From NCBI GenBank assembly GCA_010094045.1, contig ML986633.1, forward strand, positions 205,511-269,510: 64,000 nt of DNA, read 5' to 3'. A program made the position numbers and the translations under genes. The first letter of the stretch is position 1. Every line of letters starts with the position of its first letter. Source of the DNA: Lojkania enalia. Lineage: Eukaryota > Ascomycota > Dothideomycetes > Pleosporales. Below, piece by piece: positions 9,196-34,016 of the stretch. The notes below the pieces were generated by a model that did no database searches, had not been told where the DNA came from, and saw nothing but the letters and a program-made list of their open reading frames with translations.

Positions 9196-12100
9196 TCATG
9201 TCCCTCGGATATGTGACCTAATCAAATCTGCAACAGCATCATGACCTTCCTTCAACGACACTTCTATCGCTTCACCATACCTCTGTTCAGGTGTGTCAAG
9301 AACCTCTAAGGCATTCAGAAGCATCTGGACAAGATCAATCCTTCCATGCTTAGCCGCACCAACCAGTGCTGTTCCTCCATGTAGCAGGGCGCCCTCTGCG
9401 TCTGGGTTAGCTCCAGCACGAAGGAGGATAGATGCAGTTCCGACATAGCCATGGATGGCTGCTAGCTGCAAAGCAGTCGCTCCCGCATCCTGACTTGGAG
9501 GTGCATTAACGTTCGCCCCAAGAGCTATGAGATGCTCTACAAGCTCTATATCCCCCCTTTCAACTGCTGCTTGAAGTGGCGTTCTCCCGAAAATGCCGGC
9601 TGCTGGTACATTTACGTTTACGCCTACGTTGATAAGACAATTAATTAACTCTCTGGTACCTTCGAGCACGGCTACTTCAAGAAGAGAGCCTATGCATTCG
9701 CAGCTCCTGGTCTTTGACCAGTAAGGGAAATGGGCGTGTCGACTCTTTGTATCTGCGCCTGCATTAAGCAGCAACTGGCTTATCTCGATGTTCGAAGCTG
9801 CAATAGCCGCTTGGATTGGAAGCAGATAGTAAGATCTCCCCGAATCATTTCTAACTTGAGCTGGAAGATTGACATCCGCCTTTGCATCTAAAAGGAGTCG
9901 GACCAGTCTTACGTCTTCTTGATCCACTGCTGTAAGAAGTAGCGTTCCCAAGTAATCGCAGTTCCGACGTTGAAGAAAGTACGCTCCGGGTGAGTCCACA
10001 CCGGCGCCGGCTTCAATGGTCAGTTTCACCAACTCATACTTGTTTGTTTTCATTGCAGATTCCAATAATATCGTTCCAAAGGGTCGGGCCAAGTCTACAC
10101 GGGCTCCCGCTTTTACTAGCAATTGAGCAGCATGTGTTTTGCCTTGACGAACAGCAAGTTGGAAGGGGGTTTCTTGCGAAGATGATGATTCCCCGTAAGT
10201 CGGCACAAAACTGGCCAAATTTGGGTTGGCAAAATTGCTTAAAAGGAGTGCAATTAGGACGGTGTCGGAATTACTGACTGCTTCGTAGAGAGGACTTCCA
10301 TAAGAGGCTAGAGGCGAAATCGCGTTTACGTTGGCGCCATATTCCAATAAGGTTTTGACAACATTGATGTGGGAATTCCTTGCTACTAATAGTGAAGTAC
10401 TTGTTGATGATCGGGGAGCACTCGTTATTGCTTGGGGAGTACTCCGTACTGCCGTTTGGAGAGCAGTTCCACGATGATCGTCCATCCCAGCATTGATATC
10501 CGCGCCTAAATCGAGGAGCAGCTGGACAATTTCGGTATTTCCCATTTCCGCTGCGGTTTGTAGTGGGCTTTGGTTTGGATGGGCTAGACCTTGAAGAGAA
10601 TCGACTTGTGCGCCAGCTTGTAGTAGCAGCATCACCAGACTAAGATTGCCATTTCGAATTGCCAGTTGTAAGGGGCTGACATGGATTGTCTTTAGACCTC
10701 CAATAAAATTAGCTTGGCTACCAGCTCGTAGGAGGAGTCGCGTCATCTCGAGGTTTCCGTCGGAAATTGCCATTTGGAGAGATGTTTTGAAACGATATCC
10801 ACAGGCCGGAGCGTTAACATCCGCGTTATAAGCCAGAAGAAACTCTACCATATGATAGTCTCCCAGACCAACAGCTTCTTGGAGAGCGTCCCCGCAATTT
10901 TGACCTCCAGGCGCGTTGACCCAGGCACCAGCATCTAGTAGGCGAGCCGTCAGGTAACGGTTCCCTTTCCGAACCGCTTCCTGCAGTACCGTGCCGCTTG
11001 CTTTATTGGTAGGCCATGAGTTCACGTGCACACCAAAATTTAAGAGACGCTCGAATAATTCTATATCACCTAACTGTATTACGGTATGAAGGGCGGACAC
11101 GCCGGAAGCTGTTGTAATAGTTGGATTGGTACCAAGTACCAAACGGATTATTGATCCATTCCCAGTCTTTGCGGCAAGCTCAAGGGTAGTGATTGGATTT
11201 TCACCTAAAAATGCCGTGCGACTGGTATCCGCACCAGCCGTGATAAGGAGTTGAGCTACTCGATACTTGGAGCTTTGTATGGCTAGATGAAGCGCAGTCC
11301 CTTTATAAGAGCCCCCGAAGTAATATGAACACATTTCATTGACTCACGCTCCGGCTCCAATTAACAGTTGAACAAGTCGTAAATTCCCTTGGAGGACCGC
11401 CAGTATCAGGTCGGACGTGGGTATTTGTATGTCGCAATTCGCACCGCAGCGTAGCAAAAGCTGCACCAGTTCTGCATTCTCGCGGTGGATTGCTTCATTC
11501 AATGCATTCCCGAGATAAGTATGATCTTCTTCTTGAGGGGTTTCAGGTGGATTTACGGCTGCGCCGGCTTCAATGAGGATAGTTGCAAGATCTAAATAAC
11601 CCCTGCTTGCAGCAACTTTCAGAGCCCCTACGTGGACCATCGGGGAAGCACCTACGTCAGCACCTCTTTCAAGCAGCATTTCAATAAGTTTTTGATTGCC
11701 ATTTCGAATCGCAGCCTGTAGGGGTGTTCCAGTAGGATGGTTATCAGTTTGCGGGGCATTAACATCTGCGCCAGACTCTATGAGAAGCCTGACCAATGAG
11801 GTATTGCCCCGTTTCGTAGCTATTTGAATGGCTGTTACGATCGGACTTCGAGCTTGAGCGTTGACGTTTGCGCCAGGCTGGAGAAGGAGTTGAATTGATT
11901 CAATATGGCCCTTTTTAACCGCTTCTAGGAGTGCGGTTGTGGATGAACTAGATGCTCTGGCATTGACATCCGCGCCAAATTGGATGAGCAGCTTGACCAT
12001 GCTTATGTTGCATTCTTTGACAGCTGTTTGTAGCGCTGTACATAAAGCTCCAATAGATTGAGCATCAACATCTGCACCCGCCTCGATAAGCGTCTCAACT

Positions 12101-13493
12101 AGTTCTATCTTTCCCCTCATGATTGCTCGCTGAATAAGGGTCAGAGACTTGTCAGCACTGATCATGTCTGCGCCGGCTTTAACCAAGAGCCGGGTTATCT
12201 GGGTGTTACGTCGATCAATGGCTTCTTGAAGAAATCGGGATGCGTCAATGGCAGATGCCCCGATCAATGCTCCGACCTCTATGAGTAGCTTAACTATTTC
12301 TAAATTCTCCTGCACGATAGCGATATGAAGTGGTAGATGGGTGCTAGCAGTCATGTTGAAATCGGTGCCTAGTTCGATTAATCGGCGGGTCAATTCGATA
12401 TTTCCCTGTCGGATGGCTTCTTCAAGCGCGGATACTCCTCCTTGTCCATGAACATTAGCTCCAGCTCTTAAAAGGCGCTCTGCCAGATCCATATCCTTCT
12501 GGCATACAGCAGTAGCCAAGGGCACTCCAGTATCCTGTCCCCAGGCATCGAGGAATACGCCAGCATCGAGTAGAGCTTCAATAATTGTCGTCTTTTTCGC
12601 TTTAATTGCAGCTATAGATAGCTTCTTCGAAAATATCCTCGTAGTTGGTGTCCTGATGTGTAATAAAGCTCTGAGCAGGCCTCTATCTCCAGGGCCATCC
12701 AAGATATCGAGCATATCCGATGGAATTTCCATTAAATTATTCGAAATTAAGTACAGTAATGTTTCAAAATATGATGGAGCCGATCCTAGAATGTCATTAG
12801 TTGGCAAGCAACCTTCATATTGGCTCGGTACAGGGGCAATCGATGCGAAATGGCGTTCGTGTGAAGAGACAAAGTTCATATTACTCCCTATTCTGACATT
12901 AGCAAGCGAAGAGGGATGGGTTGGAGTCAACTATACTTATTGAGTCAAATTCAGTTTGAAAATAGAGCCAAGGCAAGTTTCTTAATAGGTCAGGGGCTAT
13001 TGGCGAAGAAGGTGGTGTAAATATTAACACTTCTTCGGGGAGCTCTGGATTGTGCAATAATGCACATCAGTGACATCTACTAAGGCTTTGACAATCTAGA
13101 GCATACCTCGAGCAAGTCCACTATGCCAATGAGGCATCCGATATCGGGCAATCTTTTTGCGAAGTTTCTCATTGGAAACCGGTCTCCCATCGATATGTAC
13201 CGTGCTCTCCTTGTGGTTCTTTTCTCGGTTTGTTACAATACTTGCCAATGCAGTCCATAGTGTGTGTCGTTGATTCTTACGAAACTCGTCGCCCCATTTC
13301 TTGAACTTGCTTTCATACGTTTTCTTCCTACTCCACATTAGACTTCACGTGGCATCTTCCATTAGAATGTGTAATACTTTTTATCAAATTGATGTTTATC
13401 TCTCATAAGCGCAACGACATCTTCTAGCTTCAAGCCCTCGACAATATAGTATTGCCAGATGGTTGGCTTGTATACATCCCATTGGTCCTGCAT
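9196..13493 (-). CDS. Clr5-domain ankyrin-repeat protein, with one internal TGA
   Basis: I model four exons: 13493-13378, 13327-13107, 13044-12937 and 12887-9196. The introns are 50, 62 and 49 nt, all phase-consistent. Exons 1-2 encode a Clr5 domain (start MQDQWDVYKPTIW; later KKTYESKFKKWG and FRKN), a putative DNA/chromatin-associated module of fungal proteins. A linker ending LPWLYFQTEF follows. Exon 4 carries roughly thirty ankyrin repeats (GADVNA, LLLDAGA, TALQLAA patterns) to the stop at 9196. The frame is continuous for 1,378 codons except TGA at 11346-11344, between LLIGAGA and VNEMCSYYFGG. Ankyrin stacks mediate protein-protein binding. Alternatives are two tandem ORFs (restart at ATG 11334) or a short intron; the obvious 47-nt one would shift frame. 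The exon structure is inferred from splice signals. Confidence 0.85.
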
Positions 13494-14468
13494 CTTACAT
13501 TTTACTTCCCTAGGATTGATAGTGTGAGGACCCAGTTGGTCTAGAAACTAATGTGAATGTGATACAATCAAGGCAATAAACTTATGAGTTGCTTAGTTCT
13601 GTCACCGCCAGTGCCAAAATTAGTTCAATCCGTACAGACAAAACTAATCCGTTGTAATTGAATATATCGTGAAGAGACGTTCGCAGTGTGGAGAAAATAT
13701 CGTGAGCCCTCTTGCTTAAGGATGAATGACGCATGATGCTTAAAAATTTGGCATTTGGGATAGGGAGTAACATAATCGACAAGTTTAAAAATGAGACGTT
13801 AGGGTTAGCCGACAAAGCGGCGGGGAGGTTGGGGTGACGTGGACAGGTAGGCTGATTGGCTTTTGCCAAAACCCTCCCTTAGCCTGATTGGTGTATTCCG
13901 AAACCCTCGCCAAGTTACAAAGCTTCTACTAGCTTCATGCACAGCTTACCCTGGCGAACACGGCCTGTGAGTGATCATATGAATAGGATTGGTTATTACC
14001 AAAATCCTCAGATCTTATCAGCGTTCACCGGTCCAAGTTGACGCTATGCGCCAAGTCGTTTATGGCACATATCCGTGCGGAGAGAGCAACCTCGTATTCT
14101 CTGAATTACTGTGCACCAAACCCCTCGCAGTTTATTATTGGTTGGTTGGAAAGTTCTACCGGGCTGTAGCCAGACGTCCTTGAACAATTACTAAAACCCT
14201 CAGTCAGATCCAGAGCCGAGAGTTGAGCAACTCAGTTCATCCCGCATATACCTTGGAAATGAGGCAAAGAAATGTCACAACTATTGGATATTTAAACACC
14301 TTCTCAGGGAACTTTTACATCGGATGGTGCGATAATCTTGTACTTGTTGTTTATCAGGAGGTGCACCAAGGCTATCGAACCCTTCTTCGTTTGTTTAGAG
14401 TATTTATCTAGGCTTTTATTCCCATCTAGTACTTTCACAGTCTTTTTCAATCTTTCATCTCATCCATC
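13494..14468. other. Intergenic between Clr5-ankyrin gene and first microprotein gene
   Basis: No gene is recognised. The motif CCAAAACCCTC and close variants recur near 13866, 13902, 14000 and 14195, and a short TTAGGGTTAG occurs near 13798. The last 60 bases before 14469 are a C/T-rich leader typical of fungal 5' UTRs. Confidence 0.4.
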
Positions 14469-14679
14469 ATGCGCATATCTATTGAGGCCCTTGTCGGAGT
14501 CATTGGCCTCTTTGTAGCTCTTCCACCCACCCTCCTTATCCTCTGGGCATGGCTACGACGTAGGAACTCGGGCCACGCAGACTTACACCACCATTCACAT
14601 GAGTTAAGGTACTCGTGCCAATCAGCAGCTCATTACTTCTTATAGGCTGACTACCTTACACAGAATACTCTTATATTGA
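14469..14679 (+). CDS. Single-span membrane microprotein, copy 1 (51 aa)
   Basis: Exon 1 is 14469-14608. The 55-nt intron 14609-14663 has donor GTACTC, branch-like CTGACT and acceptor CACAG. Exon 2 is 14664-14679. The protein begins MRISIEALVGVIGLFVALPP, runs through a hydrophobic helix of about 20 residues, then has an Arg cluster (WLRRRNSGH) and ends RILLY. The layout predicts one transmembrane segment with a basic cytosolic edge. Support for a real gene comes from the paralogue at 16701-16898, which shares the helix, the intron position and the five-residue second exon (RILIY). Function is unknown, and I know no characterised family. Unspliced, it would read on to a different tail ending at 14646. 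Confidence 0.7.
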
Positions 14680-15081
14680 AGCATGGAATTAGCGCTTTAC
14701 CATTCTATAATATCATTGCTATATATCACTTTGCATAGTTGGGGTTTATTGTCAATTCTTTTAGAGGTTATTCCAACTCGCATCGAATGCGTATATCTCC
14801 AACAATTCTCGTTGATAGGCAGAATTAAATCAATATCCCTGTTCATTTATATCATGTCGAGAATAAGACGATGGGCTTTAAAACTCAGAAGTAGTTCGTC
14901 TGAATCTACCAAGTTATCTCTTTGTCTCCATTTTGTACATCATCCTTTACACAACCCGAAGATCTGCGTAGCGATATAAAATACTGAAATAATAGACAGT
15001 TATCTTTTTTTCTGACTTCTCAGTATTCAGTCCGTTAATTCTAGAGCCTGACTGCTACTCTCCGCTTTATTCATTTATAAG
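14680..15081. other. Intergenic, no feature recognised
   Basis: This AT-rich stretch downstream of the first microprotein gene includes a frame at 14683-14979 that is hydrophobic but shows no family resemblance. It could be 3' UTR sequence. Confidence 0.4.
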
Positions 15082-15222
15082 TGTAAGGTTATAAGAATAG
15101 CACGATCCTTATTGAGGACTAGTCCGGATATAATACGTAGGACAGACAGCATAAGTAGCCTTGATCCTCCATAGGTACGAGTCAACACAATTTTTCCTCC
15201 TTATCCGCTCCGATACTTTACA
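15082..15222 (-). mobile_element. Solo LTR, family B (copy 1)
   Basis: This 141-bp element reads, on the minus strand, TGTAAAGTATCGG... to ...AACCTTACA. It is clearly related to 34763-34908 and to the partial copies at 42845-42966 and 46605-46690. The flanks are ataag (left) and acgag (right); these differ by one C/T and one A/G transition, so a decayed 5-bp duplication is possible but not proven. Confidence 0.75.
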
Positions 15223-16700
15223 ACGAGACGCAAATAACATCTCGATCTGACACTCTGCGCACTTACATCCTTCATAGAAGCAATATTCCACGAGCAAAAC
15301 TAACCTAGTCTTCTTACATCTAGGACTCGCGCGAAAACCCGATAGCCCATGACCAAACGTCGTCCTCATTCTCGTATTTTCTACTTTTTATACACTTACT
15401 TTCTAACAATCGACTCACCTATATACCTACACATACTCATAAAAACCATACAACATCCGGAGATAAGGTTTACGGAAATTAGTGCATTTGATGCCGGAAT
15501 ATTATACAATCATCAATCAGAAGGTTACTCCAATCAGATTGCATCCGTTGATGAATAGTACTACTGCAGGCCACGTTACGTGATTCTAACGTCGAGTACA
15601 TGCTTAATATGCTTGGCTGATAGAGCCCGTAAGTATACGGCTCTGAATTAGAGGCGCAAAATAAGGAGACATTGTAGGAAGTTATAGAAGTATGTTACAT
15701 AAACATTACTGTGCTTTTCTACATAAGAAATGTGCACTACCTATTGTCCCGTTTTCCTCCAACAGCAACAATTCTAGTGAATCTCTCGACGAACTGAAAG
15801 GAAAAAACACACCTAGCGGAATCTAACAGCCAATGAGAACAGTAATCGATGGAATTGCGGATCAAGGATTGGACATAAATTATACAGAAAATGTAGTGGG
15901 CTTGATCACGTAGAAGGCGTGATCACGCGCTTATGGATACATTAGCCGATATGATTGGCCAGCTTCAAGGGAGGGTATCAGGCTTCCACAAATATCGACG
16001 CTTTCTAAATCTGGGTAGAAAGACGAGATATATTTAAAGTAACTAGTATGGTTTAAAAGCTAGTTGCTTCCTTAGGCCACGGCGCAGCGGAAGCTTTATA
16101 CGGACAACAGATATCTTCTTCGAAAGCAGTGCTCGCCGGCTGTGCATAGCTTGGGGCGGACATCCCGACAGCTATACGACTCCGGCAGGGGCTCGCTAAC
16201 CAGGACGTTAGAAAAAGGTTAGTTAAATGTCAATGTGGGGCGTTGGGCTGCAGGAACCTAAGAATTTAGGAGAATTTAGGAGAATTTAGACGTATTTAGG
16301 CGTATCGACATAAGCGTAGGCCAATAAAAAGTGATAATCTGAGACAGTGGGTAACATGCGGTTTACCTTGTGCTTGTGCATCCCGGACCCCGATCGCATC
16401 AAGATCAAGTATTTGGTCGCCTTCTAAAAGAAATATTGTTACTAGCATGAAATATTATCGAGTTTGCTACTAGGGATGTAAGTAATAGGGTTATTGCGTA
16501 GACTATCACCACCAGAAGTCACCACCCGGTATTTAAACGCTCACAAACCTTCATAGAGCGCTCCTCGCTCAACTAAATAGCACCCAAATTCTCAGGTTCT
16601 AGTGCTACTGATAAGCCTACCAATCAAACTAAGCTTTCTATAATCGGAGCACCCTCCCTATACTAGCTTGGAGCACCCCCAGGCCTCCACTCTACCTACA
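15223..16700. other. Intergenic upstream of microprotein copy 2
   Basis: No gene is recognised. A short tandem repeat lies at 16257-16307. The region just upstream of 16701 is C/T-rich, like the leader of the first copy, but otherwise not alignable by eye. Confidence 0.4.
16257..16307. repeat. Short tandem repeat, about 11-bp unit
   Basis: Three to four copies of GAATTTAGGA-like units stand head to tail, followed by GACGTATTTAGGCGTAT. This is a microsatellite-scale feature with no coding potential. Confidence 0.6.
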
Positions 16701-16898
16701 ATGCAAATATTAGTCGAGGCTCTCGTCGGAATAATTGGCCTCCTCATAGCCTTACCGCCCTCTCTCCTCATTATATGGTCTTTGTTGCGACGGAAAAATG
16801 GGGCCCGTGCGTATGCGCGGGAGTTGAGGTACGCATCTGCATGGAGCCTAATAACTTGTACTGTACTTATGGCTTGGGATAGGATATTAATTTACTGA
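16701..16898 (+). CDS. Single-span membrane microprotein, copy 2 (47 aa)
   Basis: Exon 1 is 16701-16828, intron 16829-16882 (54 nt, donor GTACGC, acceptor GATAG) and exon 2 16883-16898. The protein starts MQILVEALVGIIGLLIALPP, has one hydrophobic helix, then LLRRKNGARAYARELR and the terminal RILIY. Compared with copy 1, the helix core (EALVGxIGLxxALPPxLLIxW), the RR(K/R) stretch, the ELR|RI(L)LY junction and the intron phase are all kept, while intron sequence is not. That pattern suggests selection on the spliced product. Unspliced, the same frame ends at the same TGA with an 18-residue insertion, so intron retention would still give a protein. Confidence 0.72.
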   Translation: MQILVEALVGIIGLLIALPPSLLIIWSLLRRKNGARAYARELRYASAWSLITCTVLMAWDRILIY

Positions 16899-17348
16899 GT
16901 GAAGGGGGAAAGACACTCGTTGTTCATGGCTCAGTCGTCTAGCGCAGGTATATCTGGCGACTGATTTGGAGGACGTATGTAGTGGATCTTTTTGTACACT
17001 TCAAGTTCTCATATCAAGGTTCCTTTTTTTTGTCCTGGTAGTATTATGCTTTTCCTAGGTGCCTTCCATATACGCTTCCAGCCCTTCCCTCTCATGTCAT
17101 CCCCAGATCAGCCCTTCTCTTTTCCTAAACCACTTCACCGTTGTCGCGGAAAGCTCTGCGGAAAAGAGAGTTAGAAATCCTTCAGATATTCACATTGAAA
17201 ATGCCTCCAGTACTCTAGGAAGTCCTATCATACAAACCAACGAAGTGTGCTTGACCAAGAACACAAAAATGCTCTAAAAATACCACAAACGCCTTGTTGA
17301 ATACTCCCATTTGAGATCGAATAGAAGTCCCCACACGAACCTAATTCC
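16899..17348. other. 3' flanks between microprotein copy 2 and the MFAP1 gene
   Basis: These genes converge here. Only short frames are present. No repeat or RNA gene is seen. Confidence 0.45.
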
Positions 17349-32187: not shown

Positions 32188-34016
32188 ACGTAATCCACCA
32201 CTGAGCTGCGCACCCCAGCGAGCTGCGCACCCCACCAAAACGCGACAAAACGCGTCCACCTTCTTGACCATGGCTCGACAACAACAAGCTCAATTACTAT
32301 TAAAAGAAGGCAGAATTAGTCTTGCCCTTGTCTCAATCAAGTCTAATACTTGTCAGTCAATTCGTGCTGCTGCAACAGCCTACAATGTCCCTGAATCGAC
32401 CCTACGGACGCGTCTCCGCGGTGTACAAGCTAGGATCGAGACAACGCCTATCAATCGCAAGCTATCGCCAGTTGAAGAGCAGTCCCTTGTTTACTGGATC
32501 CTAGACCTTGATCGACGAGGTTTTCCCCCGCAACTTATTAACGTGCGACAAATGGCAGACGTTTTACTCGCTGCTCGCGGCGCAGATCCTCCCCCGAGGC
32601 CTATAGGAAAGAACTGGGTGTCACGCTTTGTCAAGAGCCAGGTAGAGCTCCAGACTAAGTGGAATAGGAAGCTGCACTCCCAGCGTGCTCTCTATCAGGA
32701 TCCAGTCAAGTTTGGTGCCTGGTTTAAGCTCGTAGAAGAGATGCGCTAGGCGTATGGAATCTATGATCAAGATACCTATAAATTTGATGAGACAGGATTT
32801 ATGATAGGGGTCGCCAGCACGTCTAAGGTCGTGACGAGCGCTAATAGAACTGGCCGGGTAACTGCTATTCAGCCAGGTAATCGTGACTGGGTCACAGCGA
32901 TTGAGTGTATTAATGCGTCTGGCTGGATGATCTCACTGCTCATCATCCTACCAGGCAAGCTATACCAGGCTAGCTGGTATCGCTTAATTCCTGACAACTG
33001 GACGATTGCAGTTAGCGAAAATGGCTGGACAACTGATAAGATTAGCCTAGTATGGATTAAGCACTTCAACAATCAGATATTGTCACGTACGGTGGGCGTC
33101 TATCGTCTGCTTATAGTAGACGGGCATGGCAGCCATATAACGCCTGAGTTTGATCAATATTGTACAGAGAACAAGATTATCAGTCTCTGTATGCCAGCTC
33201 ACAGCTCCTACCTCCTACAGCTGCTAGATGTCAGCTGCTACGCGCCGCTCAAGCAGTCGTACAGACGCGAGGTGTCTGAGCTAGCGCGCAATCGGATCTT
33301 CTATGTTGATAAGCTAGACTTTCTAAGCATGTATCAGCGTATTAGGCCTACTGTATTTAGTGAGCAGAGCATTAGGAGTGGGTTTTAAGCGACAGGCTTA
33401 ATCCCATTCTGCCCTAATCGCGTTCTATCGTCGCTCACTATCGTCCGAACACCGTCACCTCCACGCCAAAATCCTGATAGTGAGCAGCACTGGACAGCAG
33501 AGACGCCTCATACAGTTGTCCAGCTTCAGCAGCAGACTTATATAAGACCGTCTAGGTCGCCAGTCACAGAGCCCTACAAACCAGGCAATATCTCAGCTTG
33601 TTAAAGGATGCCAGATAGCGATGCATTCTGCGACAATCCTCGCAGAGGAGAACACCAAGCTCCGTCAGGCAAACCAGCGCCGAGAGCGGAAGAGACAACA
33701 GTGACGACAGTATATTGCCTCAGGAGGGGCTCTCTCAGGCGAGGAAGGTCGAAGGCTGGCTACAGAGGCTGATAGGTTGCTTGAGGTAGAGGCGCAGGCT
33801 GAGGCATCTCAGGTGCGCCAGCGAGCACCACCAACCTGCTCAAAGTGCCACGAGCGAGGCTATAACAGGTCTGGATGTAGAAGCAATTAGGAATATTTTG
33901 TATATATATTTGTATAGGTTTAATTCAGTTGTTGTTCAGTTATCCGTCAAAAAAGCACGCTGCTTTTGGTGGGGTGCGCAGCTCGCTGGGGTGCGCAGCT
34001 CAGTGGTGGATTACGT
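32188..34016 (+). mobile_element. Fot1/pogo-type DNA transposon (1,829 bp)
   Basis: Perfect 53-bp terminal inverted repeats lie at 32188-32240 and 33964-34016. Each contains two direct copies of a 15-bp GAGCTGCGCACCCCA motif. The flanking dinucleotide TA is duplicated (32186-32187 and 34017-34018), as expected for the Tc1/mariner-pogo superfamily. The interior carries one transposase gene with nonsense mutations. The size is in the Fot1 range. The TIR identity points to a fairly recent insertion. Confidence 0.95.
32270..33890 (+). pseudogene. Fot1/pogo transposase, disrupted
   Basis: The start is ATG 32270 (MARQQQAQLLLKEG). Two helix-turn-helix DNA-binding modules come first (SIRAAATAYNVPESTLRTRL; then a CENP-B-like region with PPRPIGKNWVSRFVK). 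The DDE endonuclease has aspartates in YKFDETGF, LLIVDGHGSH and LQLLDVSCYAPLK. A C-terminal zinc-knuckle-like CSKCHERG...C ends at 33890. TAG at 32747, TAA at 33386 and TGA near 33703 interrupt the frame. A one-base shift near 33530 is followed by another TAA. Several stops fit single C-to-T changes. The transposase cut and pasted DNA at TA sites when intact; this copy is now non-autonomous. Confidence 0.92.

Follow-up and report, generated by a model that had tools for sequence, protein, structure and literature searches.

The analysed window, a 64-kb stretch of Lojkania enalia DNA, carries two small genes in tandem, designated A and B, and a gene encoding a Clr5 domain and ankyrin repeats that lies divergently upstream of A (Table 1). 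Gene A (14469-14679) encodes a product of 51 aa, MRISIEALVGVIGLFVALPPTLLILWAWLRRRNSGHADLHHHSHELRILLY; gene B (16701-16898), an extra tandem copy located 2.0 kb behind A, encodes a product of 47 aa, MQILVEALVGIIGLLIALPPSLLIIWSLLRRKNGARAYARELRILIY. Both peptides consist of a short N-terminus with a common Glu, a single hydrophobic helix, an Arg patch, and the ending RILLY or RILIY. The introns of both genes are in phase 2 and follow directly 3' of GAG-TT(A/G)-AG, and the 16-nt last exon comprises one base of an Arg codon, four codons, and the stop. A search of both strands of the 64-kb window for the pattern AG|N-ATH-(L)-(L/I)-TAY-stop returned the A and B sites only.

Table 1. Positions of the microprotein genes, the Clr5-ankyrin gene, and the spacer features in the window
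Feature	Position	Strand	Remarks
Gene A, exon 1	14469..14608	+	Predicted membrane helix and Arg patch
Gene A, intron	14609..14663	+	55 nt, GTACTC...CACAG, phase 2
Gene A, exon 2	14664..14679	+	16 nt, (R)ILLY-stop
Gene B, exon 1	16701..16828	+	Helix-encoding exon
Gene B, intron	16829..16882	+	54 nt, GTACGC...GATAG, phase 2; open in frame if unspliced
Gene B, exon 2	16883..16898	+	16 nt, (R)ILIY-stop
Clr5 domain (PF14420), first part, partner of A	13380..13493	-	C56:218890-219003; 39.5 bits, cut-off 22.3
Second Clr5-region exon, partner of A	13141..13332	-	C56:218651-218842; 47% identical to the C80 partner, E 2.2e-9
Ankyrin-repeat part, partner of A	9199..12930	-	Two open frames divided by an in-frame TGA
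Divergent spacer, putative two-way promoter	13494..14468	.	Between A and the Clr5 gene
Two copies of CTGATTGG(N8-11)AAACYC	13852..13906 (13852-13874, 13884-13906)	+	Tentative, chosen by eye

The two introns differ in how readily they can be recognized. The 5' splice site of gene A (GTACTC) is weak, and our splice scan demanded a G at position 5, so that this intron was absent from its list, although the scan did list a branch-like site for the 3' end of the intron; a CTGAC branch-point-like site is located 13 nt upstream of that end. In gene B, the intron contains no in-frame stop and the RILIY ending is thus reached whether or not the transcript is spliced, so the ending is no proof of splicing.

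At the DNA level, the only match between A and B lies over exon 1 (106 bp, 69% identity), and the remainder of the two stretches (12931-15269 for A and 15270-17348 for B) showed no alignment beyond it. Within 44 aligned codons, which left out 7 of the 51 codons of A and 3 of the 47 of B, differences at codon positions 1, 2, and 3 numbered 12, 7, and 26. The corresponding pS and pN were 0.75 and 0.20, giving a pN/pS of 0.27 (bootstrap 0.15-0.44), a value that is rough because silent sites are near saturation, while its direction is still clear. This predominance of silent differences indicates that the peptide sequence of A and B is under selection. The tandem arrangement at these positions, the helix with its Arg patch, the endings encoded by a 16-nt exon, the common position and phase of the introns, the unalignable introns and flanks, and selection on the peptide had all been proposed in a preliminary description of this DNA and were borne out by these comparisons.

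Several repeat-like features were observed in the surrounding DNA. A short tandem repeat with a unit of approximately 10 bases (AGAATTTAGG-like, recognized by eye) is located upstream of B at window positions 16260-16299. A stretch of approximately 145 bp downstream of A (window 15082-15223) is 77% identical to positions 2582-2722 of L037 (the C122 locus, described below) and is possibly a dispersed repeat. Farther away, at window 32189-33388 on the plus strand, the translations of two adjoining frames resemble, by eye, a pogo-type (CENP-B/DDE) transposase.

Translated searches of the whole 58.1-Mb genome identified relatives of A and B. Exon 1 of B matched A, B, and a third site on contig C80, and exon 1 of the C80 gene gave five matches at four loci (A, B, C80, C30, and C122) and no match outside these loci in 58 Mb. 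The C30 and C122 sequences, used as queries, each matched themselves and C80 only. Nine of the ten pairs among these five sequences scored z >= 6.5 against region-wise shuffles that kept the composition of the hydrophobic core; for the tenth, C30-C122, z was 2.3 and the score was reached by 16 of 500 shuffles. These similarities indicate that A and B belong to a genuine family, which comprises five genes at four loci of this genome and is hereafter called family I.

Gene structure varies within family I. The C80 gene (MTLSVEVIVAIVTLFVTCPPTFLIIWKVSRRQRNPHRSICRPFQLIGRSILLYCQRH) is a single frame without an intron that reads through to RSILLYCQRH*. Two introns were listed by the splice scan at C122. 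The better one (51 nt, GTATGC...ACTAG) leads into a long second exon and yields a product of 69 aa that matches the hypothetical protein CC78DRAFT_536853 of L. enalia (P0001) at every residue, an identity that independently supports both the gene and its intron model. No clear second exon was found by the splice scan at C30. A tiny terminal exon that encodes the RI(L/I)(L/I)Y ending is therefore confined to A and B, two of the five members, and the proposal that it characterizes the family did not hold. A, B, C80, C122, and P0002 (a metagenomic protein described below) contain a looser tail pattern, R-x(0,1)-[ILM]-[LQV]-[LIVF]-[YF], which is absent from C30 and C1; this pattern was fitted post hoc to sequences already seen, and it matches 77 of 20,000 random 22-residue stretches.

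Family I is poorly represented in existing resources. No Pfam family above the cut-off was obtained for A, B, C80, P0001, exon 1 of C30, C1, or P0002; weak matches to MLANA, LapA_dom, DUF4914, AA9, and TMCCDC2 all fell below the curated cut-off and were rejected. Searches of 5.8 billion proteins with B alone and with a profile of A, B, and C80 gave zero matches, and a profile to which C30, C122, and C1 had been added gave two, P0001 and P0002; C30 and C1 themselves were absent from these matches. This search was restricted to relatives of similar length with common short words, so annotations modelled differently could be missed. As C122 alone of the five genes was found in this protein set, family I is poorly annotated, in agreement with the earlier expectation that such genes are usually missed. 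That expectation had been coupled to the view that the family is undescribed or unnamed, which stands as far as Pfam is concerned and needs qualification for C122, an annotated hypothetical protein.

We examined the likely membrane topology of family I. Hydropathy over 18 residues was 2.3-2.8 in all five members, and an AlphaFold model of the C80 protein, built with seven sequences, placed a helix at residues 5-33 with a pLDDT of about 80 and a second helix at residues 41-56 with low confidence. The peptides are most likely single-pass membrane proteins, as the preliminary description had also suggested from A and B. According to the positive-inside rule, positively charged segments flanking a membrane span tend to remain on the cytosolic side; with an Arg patch C-terminal of the helix and an acidic residue before it, the sequences suggest a single span with the N-terminus out and the C-terminus in.

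A Clr5-like gene located on the opposite strand beside the C80 member prompted a search of the genome for the Clr5 domain (PF14420). The domain occurred at 13 places, 12 of which scored above the family cut-off, including the partners at the window locus, C30, and C122; the C80 match (16.6 bits, cut-off 22.3) was below it and covered the end of the domain only. In all four family-I loci, the Clr5 gene is divergent and lies on the 5' side of the microprotein gene at 0.3-1.0 kb, with distances from the microprotein ATG to the Clr5 match of 976, 297, 930, and 603 nt. Ankyrin repeats were above the Pfam cut-off in all four partners (window, C30, C80, and C122). All four family-I loci are thus linked to Clr5-ankyrin genes. 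If random placement is assumed, the chance that one random locus would lie within 1.5 kb of any of the 13 Clr5 places, on the right side and strand, is about 1.7e-4, and the joint chance for C80, C30, and C122 is about 5e-12. The spacers of A, C80, C30, and C122 do not align with each other, so that the linkage has outlived the intergenic DNA. The preliminary description overlooked these head-to-head Clr5-domain genes; the key property of the family is its linkage to them rather than the tiny exon.

The association is not uniform across Clr5 genes. With the second Clr5 exon of C80 as the query, five loci were matched, four of which have a microprotein; the match at C122 was weak (E 1.78, two internal stops), and the fifth locus, C42, is a Clr5-ankyrin locus at which inspection, a hydrophobic-ORF scan, and alignment found no microprotein. 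Counting both microprotein types described here, a divergent microprotein was present at 6 of the 13 Clr5 places, and none was recognizable at the other seven, namely C42 and six others (among them C394, whose contig extends only 1.3 kb upstream). Gene B lacks a Clr5 neighbor of its own, and no Clr5-ankyrin remnants were found beside it (best E 0.09). Within the partner of A, an in-frame TGA is located at window 11344-11346 on the minus strand with ankyrin sequence on either side; this gene may be truncated or decayed.

A structure prediction for a Clr5 domain, based on one sequence, was of poor quality (pLDDT 48.8), and none of the solved structures matched the domain convincingly. The Clr5 ORF of C394 showed a sub-cut-off match to the winged-helix family HTH_33 (E 3e-4), a resemblance that gives a hint that Clr5 may bind DNA. 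At this locus (L036:1286-1621), an intron-free Clr5 domain is followed, by eye, by a second helix-turn-helix-like stretch.

A second type of microprotein emerged from the inspection of DNA beside Clr5 genes. A scan for hydrophobic ORFs is not evidence in itself, since 10 of the 13 Clr5 loci have such an ORF upstream. Both Clr5-TPR loci, C1 and C12, nevertheless contain matching microproteins in the same divergent layout. The C1 microprotein is MARISLSAEVITSITFGILQLIIGLISLWQQRHFRRVNCTLFFVPIYLMCD; on the minus strand of L029 (C12), its relative is frameshifted in the middle of the helix, and the downstream part is similar in another frame and ends at the same stop. Genome-wide searches with the C1 type matched C1 and C12 only, and because the type was discovered by looking beside Clr5 genes, its absence elsewhere is the only unbiased part of this result. 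A metagenomic relative, P0002, is a protein of 49 aa encoded on a 1,362-base contig of a JGI metagenome and shares 73% identity with C1 across 44 residues. Comparison of C1 and P0002 with all five family-I members gave z scores of -0.3 to 1.7, that is, no demonstrable homology, and the two types appear to be linked by position only. An exon 2 ending in ILFKTIER was attractive in the C1/C12 alignment and was dropped, because in P0002 and C12 the conservation continues beyond the putative 5' splice site and C12 has the same stop; the tiny exon is thus not supported for this type either. The C1 and C12 loci can be aligned across 2.7 kb and therefore arose by joint duplication.

We also compared the divergent spacers. 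No similarity across loci exceeded chance except that between C1 and C12; the A-C1, B-C1, and C30-C122 comparisons reached z 1.6-1.8. The element CTGATTGG(N8-11)AAACYC had five exact matches genome-wide, four of which were in Clr5/microprotein spacers (two in A, one in C1, and one in C12), and its reversed control had none. The fifth match, on C26, showed no visible Clr5 or microprotein gene in a 3-kb locus. In a looser form, five of seven matches fell inside spacers, and those at window 4969 and L033 5183 fell outside. The element is suggestive only, as it was picked by eye, the DNA of C1 and C12 is homologous, and no copy occurs in the spacers of C80, C30, and C122. In the A spacer (window 13855-14195, plus strand), several CCAAAACCCTC-like stretches were noted by eye, and an ATTGG box precedes three of these.

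Based on these data, the reading that we favor, with a rough probability of 0.55, is that A and B are coding genes of a small microprotein family which is divergently paired with Clr5-ankyrin genes, and that the paired products act together. The microprotein would span a membrane, its acidic N-terminus facing the outside or the lumen and its Arg-rich tail facing the cytosol. Its short hydrophobic tail, or the helix itself, might recruit, or be governed by, the repeat-rich Clr5 protein. The Clr5 repeat protein would then serve as a sensor or scaffold, and the microprotein is most likely its membrane anchor or output. The repetition of the family-I layout at C1 and C12 with a second microprotein type counts for such a partnership. 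Counting against it are the frameshift at C12, the TGA in the Clr5-ankyrin frame of the window, the Clr5 loci without a microprotein, the sub-cut-off Clr5 match at C80, the weak match at C122, and the solitary position of B. The evidence from other species amounts to a single short metagenomic protein, P0002, which is of the second type and comes without gene context.

A serious rival, to which we assign a minor share of the probability, is that a microprotein gene and a Clr5 gene were co-duplicated a few times and stayed adjacent, the microprotein having a membrane function of its own unrelated to Clr5. The linkage could have arisen from joint duplication alone, as the C1/C12 pair did, and B is present without a Clr5 neighbor. 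Against this, A, C80, C30, and C122 keep the layout even though their spacers are unalignable, with no family-I match elsewhere in 58 Mb, and the same layout recurs in two microprotein types without detectable similarity.

A more specific, rather doubtful explanation assigns the Clr5-repeat protein the role of a non-NLR sensor and the microprotein that of a membrane executor, by analogy with NWD2 and HET-S. The adjacency of a repeat-protein gene and a gene for a small hydrophobic protein fits this explanation, and receptor/effector gene clustering is described for fungal NLRs in the accessible portions of two studies (PMC3321046, PMC9815663). The scanned ORFs, by contrast, contained no NACHT/NB-ARC or HeLo match, and a search for the tail pattern in 11 ORFs taken from seven Clr5 loci gave no match; this test was crude, since C42 and possibly some off-frame ORFs were among those searched and the first exon of C80 was missing. 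In its broadest form, which we regard as an unlikely generalization, the Clr5-ankyrin and Clr5-TPR proteins of Pleosporales would be the sensor halves of a non-NLR membrane-effector system built from two genes. The effectors would be single-span microproteins, for the most part not annotated, and would belong to two or more unrelated sequence types occupying the same divergent slot.

The remaining explanations are far weaker. In one of them, transcribing the short gene would control in cis how active the divergent Clr5 promoter is, and the peptide would be incidental; the divergent layout and the possible common spacer element suit this reading, which is very improbable given that the peptide sequence appears to be under selection, with amino acids kept in distant relatives. 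Equally improbable is the reading that the genes are open frames arisen by chance or remnants in decay. The frameshift at C12, the weak 5' splice site of A, and the commonness of hydrophobic ORFs beside Clr5 genes speak for it, and the pN/pS, the genome-wide homology, and the identity of the listed spliced form of C122 with an annotated protein contradict it.

If a small membrane partner is indeed recurrent, Clr5-domain repeat proteins, which barely figure in the literature among the matches listed, would gain a testable mechanism, and the place to look for partners would be behind each Clr5-ankyrin or Clr5-TPR gene. Titles and abstract beginnings among the matches listed contained no report of a Clr5-linked microprotein in searches on Clr5, fungal small membrane proteins, and gene pairs. 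The main text of PMC9815663 does not mention Clr5, and in the accessible portions of PMC12258605 and PMC6627653 it is mentioned once each, in passing. The partner of A resembles known Clr5-domain proteins in that it scores above the family cut-off of PF14420, and differs from them in its putative small divergent membrane partner, none having been reported in the same titles and abstract beginnings.

In HET-S/NWD2 and further NLR-effector pairs of fungi, a gene for a small membrane-acting protein stands beside one for a large repeat-rich protein, with conserved clustering, according to the accessible portions of the studies cited (PMC3321046, PMC9815663). The microprotein and Clr5 genes are similarly adjacent. 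Unlike in HET-S/NWD2, the partners of family I and of the C1 type combine Clr5 with ankyrin (window, C30, C42, C80, and C122) or TPR (C1 and C12), with no NACHT/NB-ARC found by Pfam in those partner exons that were scanned, and the microproteins A, B, C80, C30, C1, P0001, and P0002 show no HeLo domain above the Pfam cut-off. Plant head-to-head NLR pairs form inverted tandems, possibly with a common promoter, in the accessible part of PMC12258605; both partners there are NLR receptors, whereas one partner here is a microprotein. Finally, as the accessible part of PMC7394265 describes, conserved fungal short ORFs of up to 80 aa are coding and have been overlooked by annotation. The family-I genes are likewise small, mostly overlooked coding genes and differ from those short ORFs in having a recurrent large neighbor. 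The family also shows how the conservation of gene neighbors can expose microproteins that annotation has passed over.
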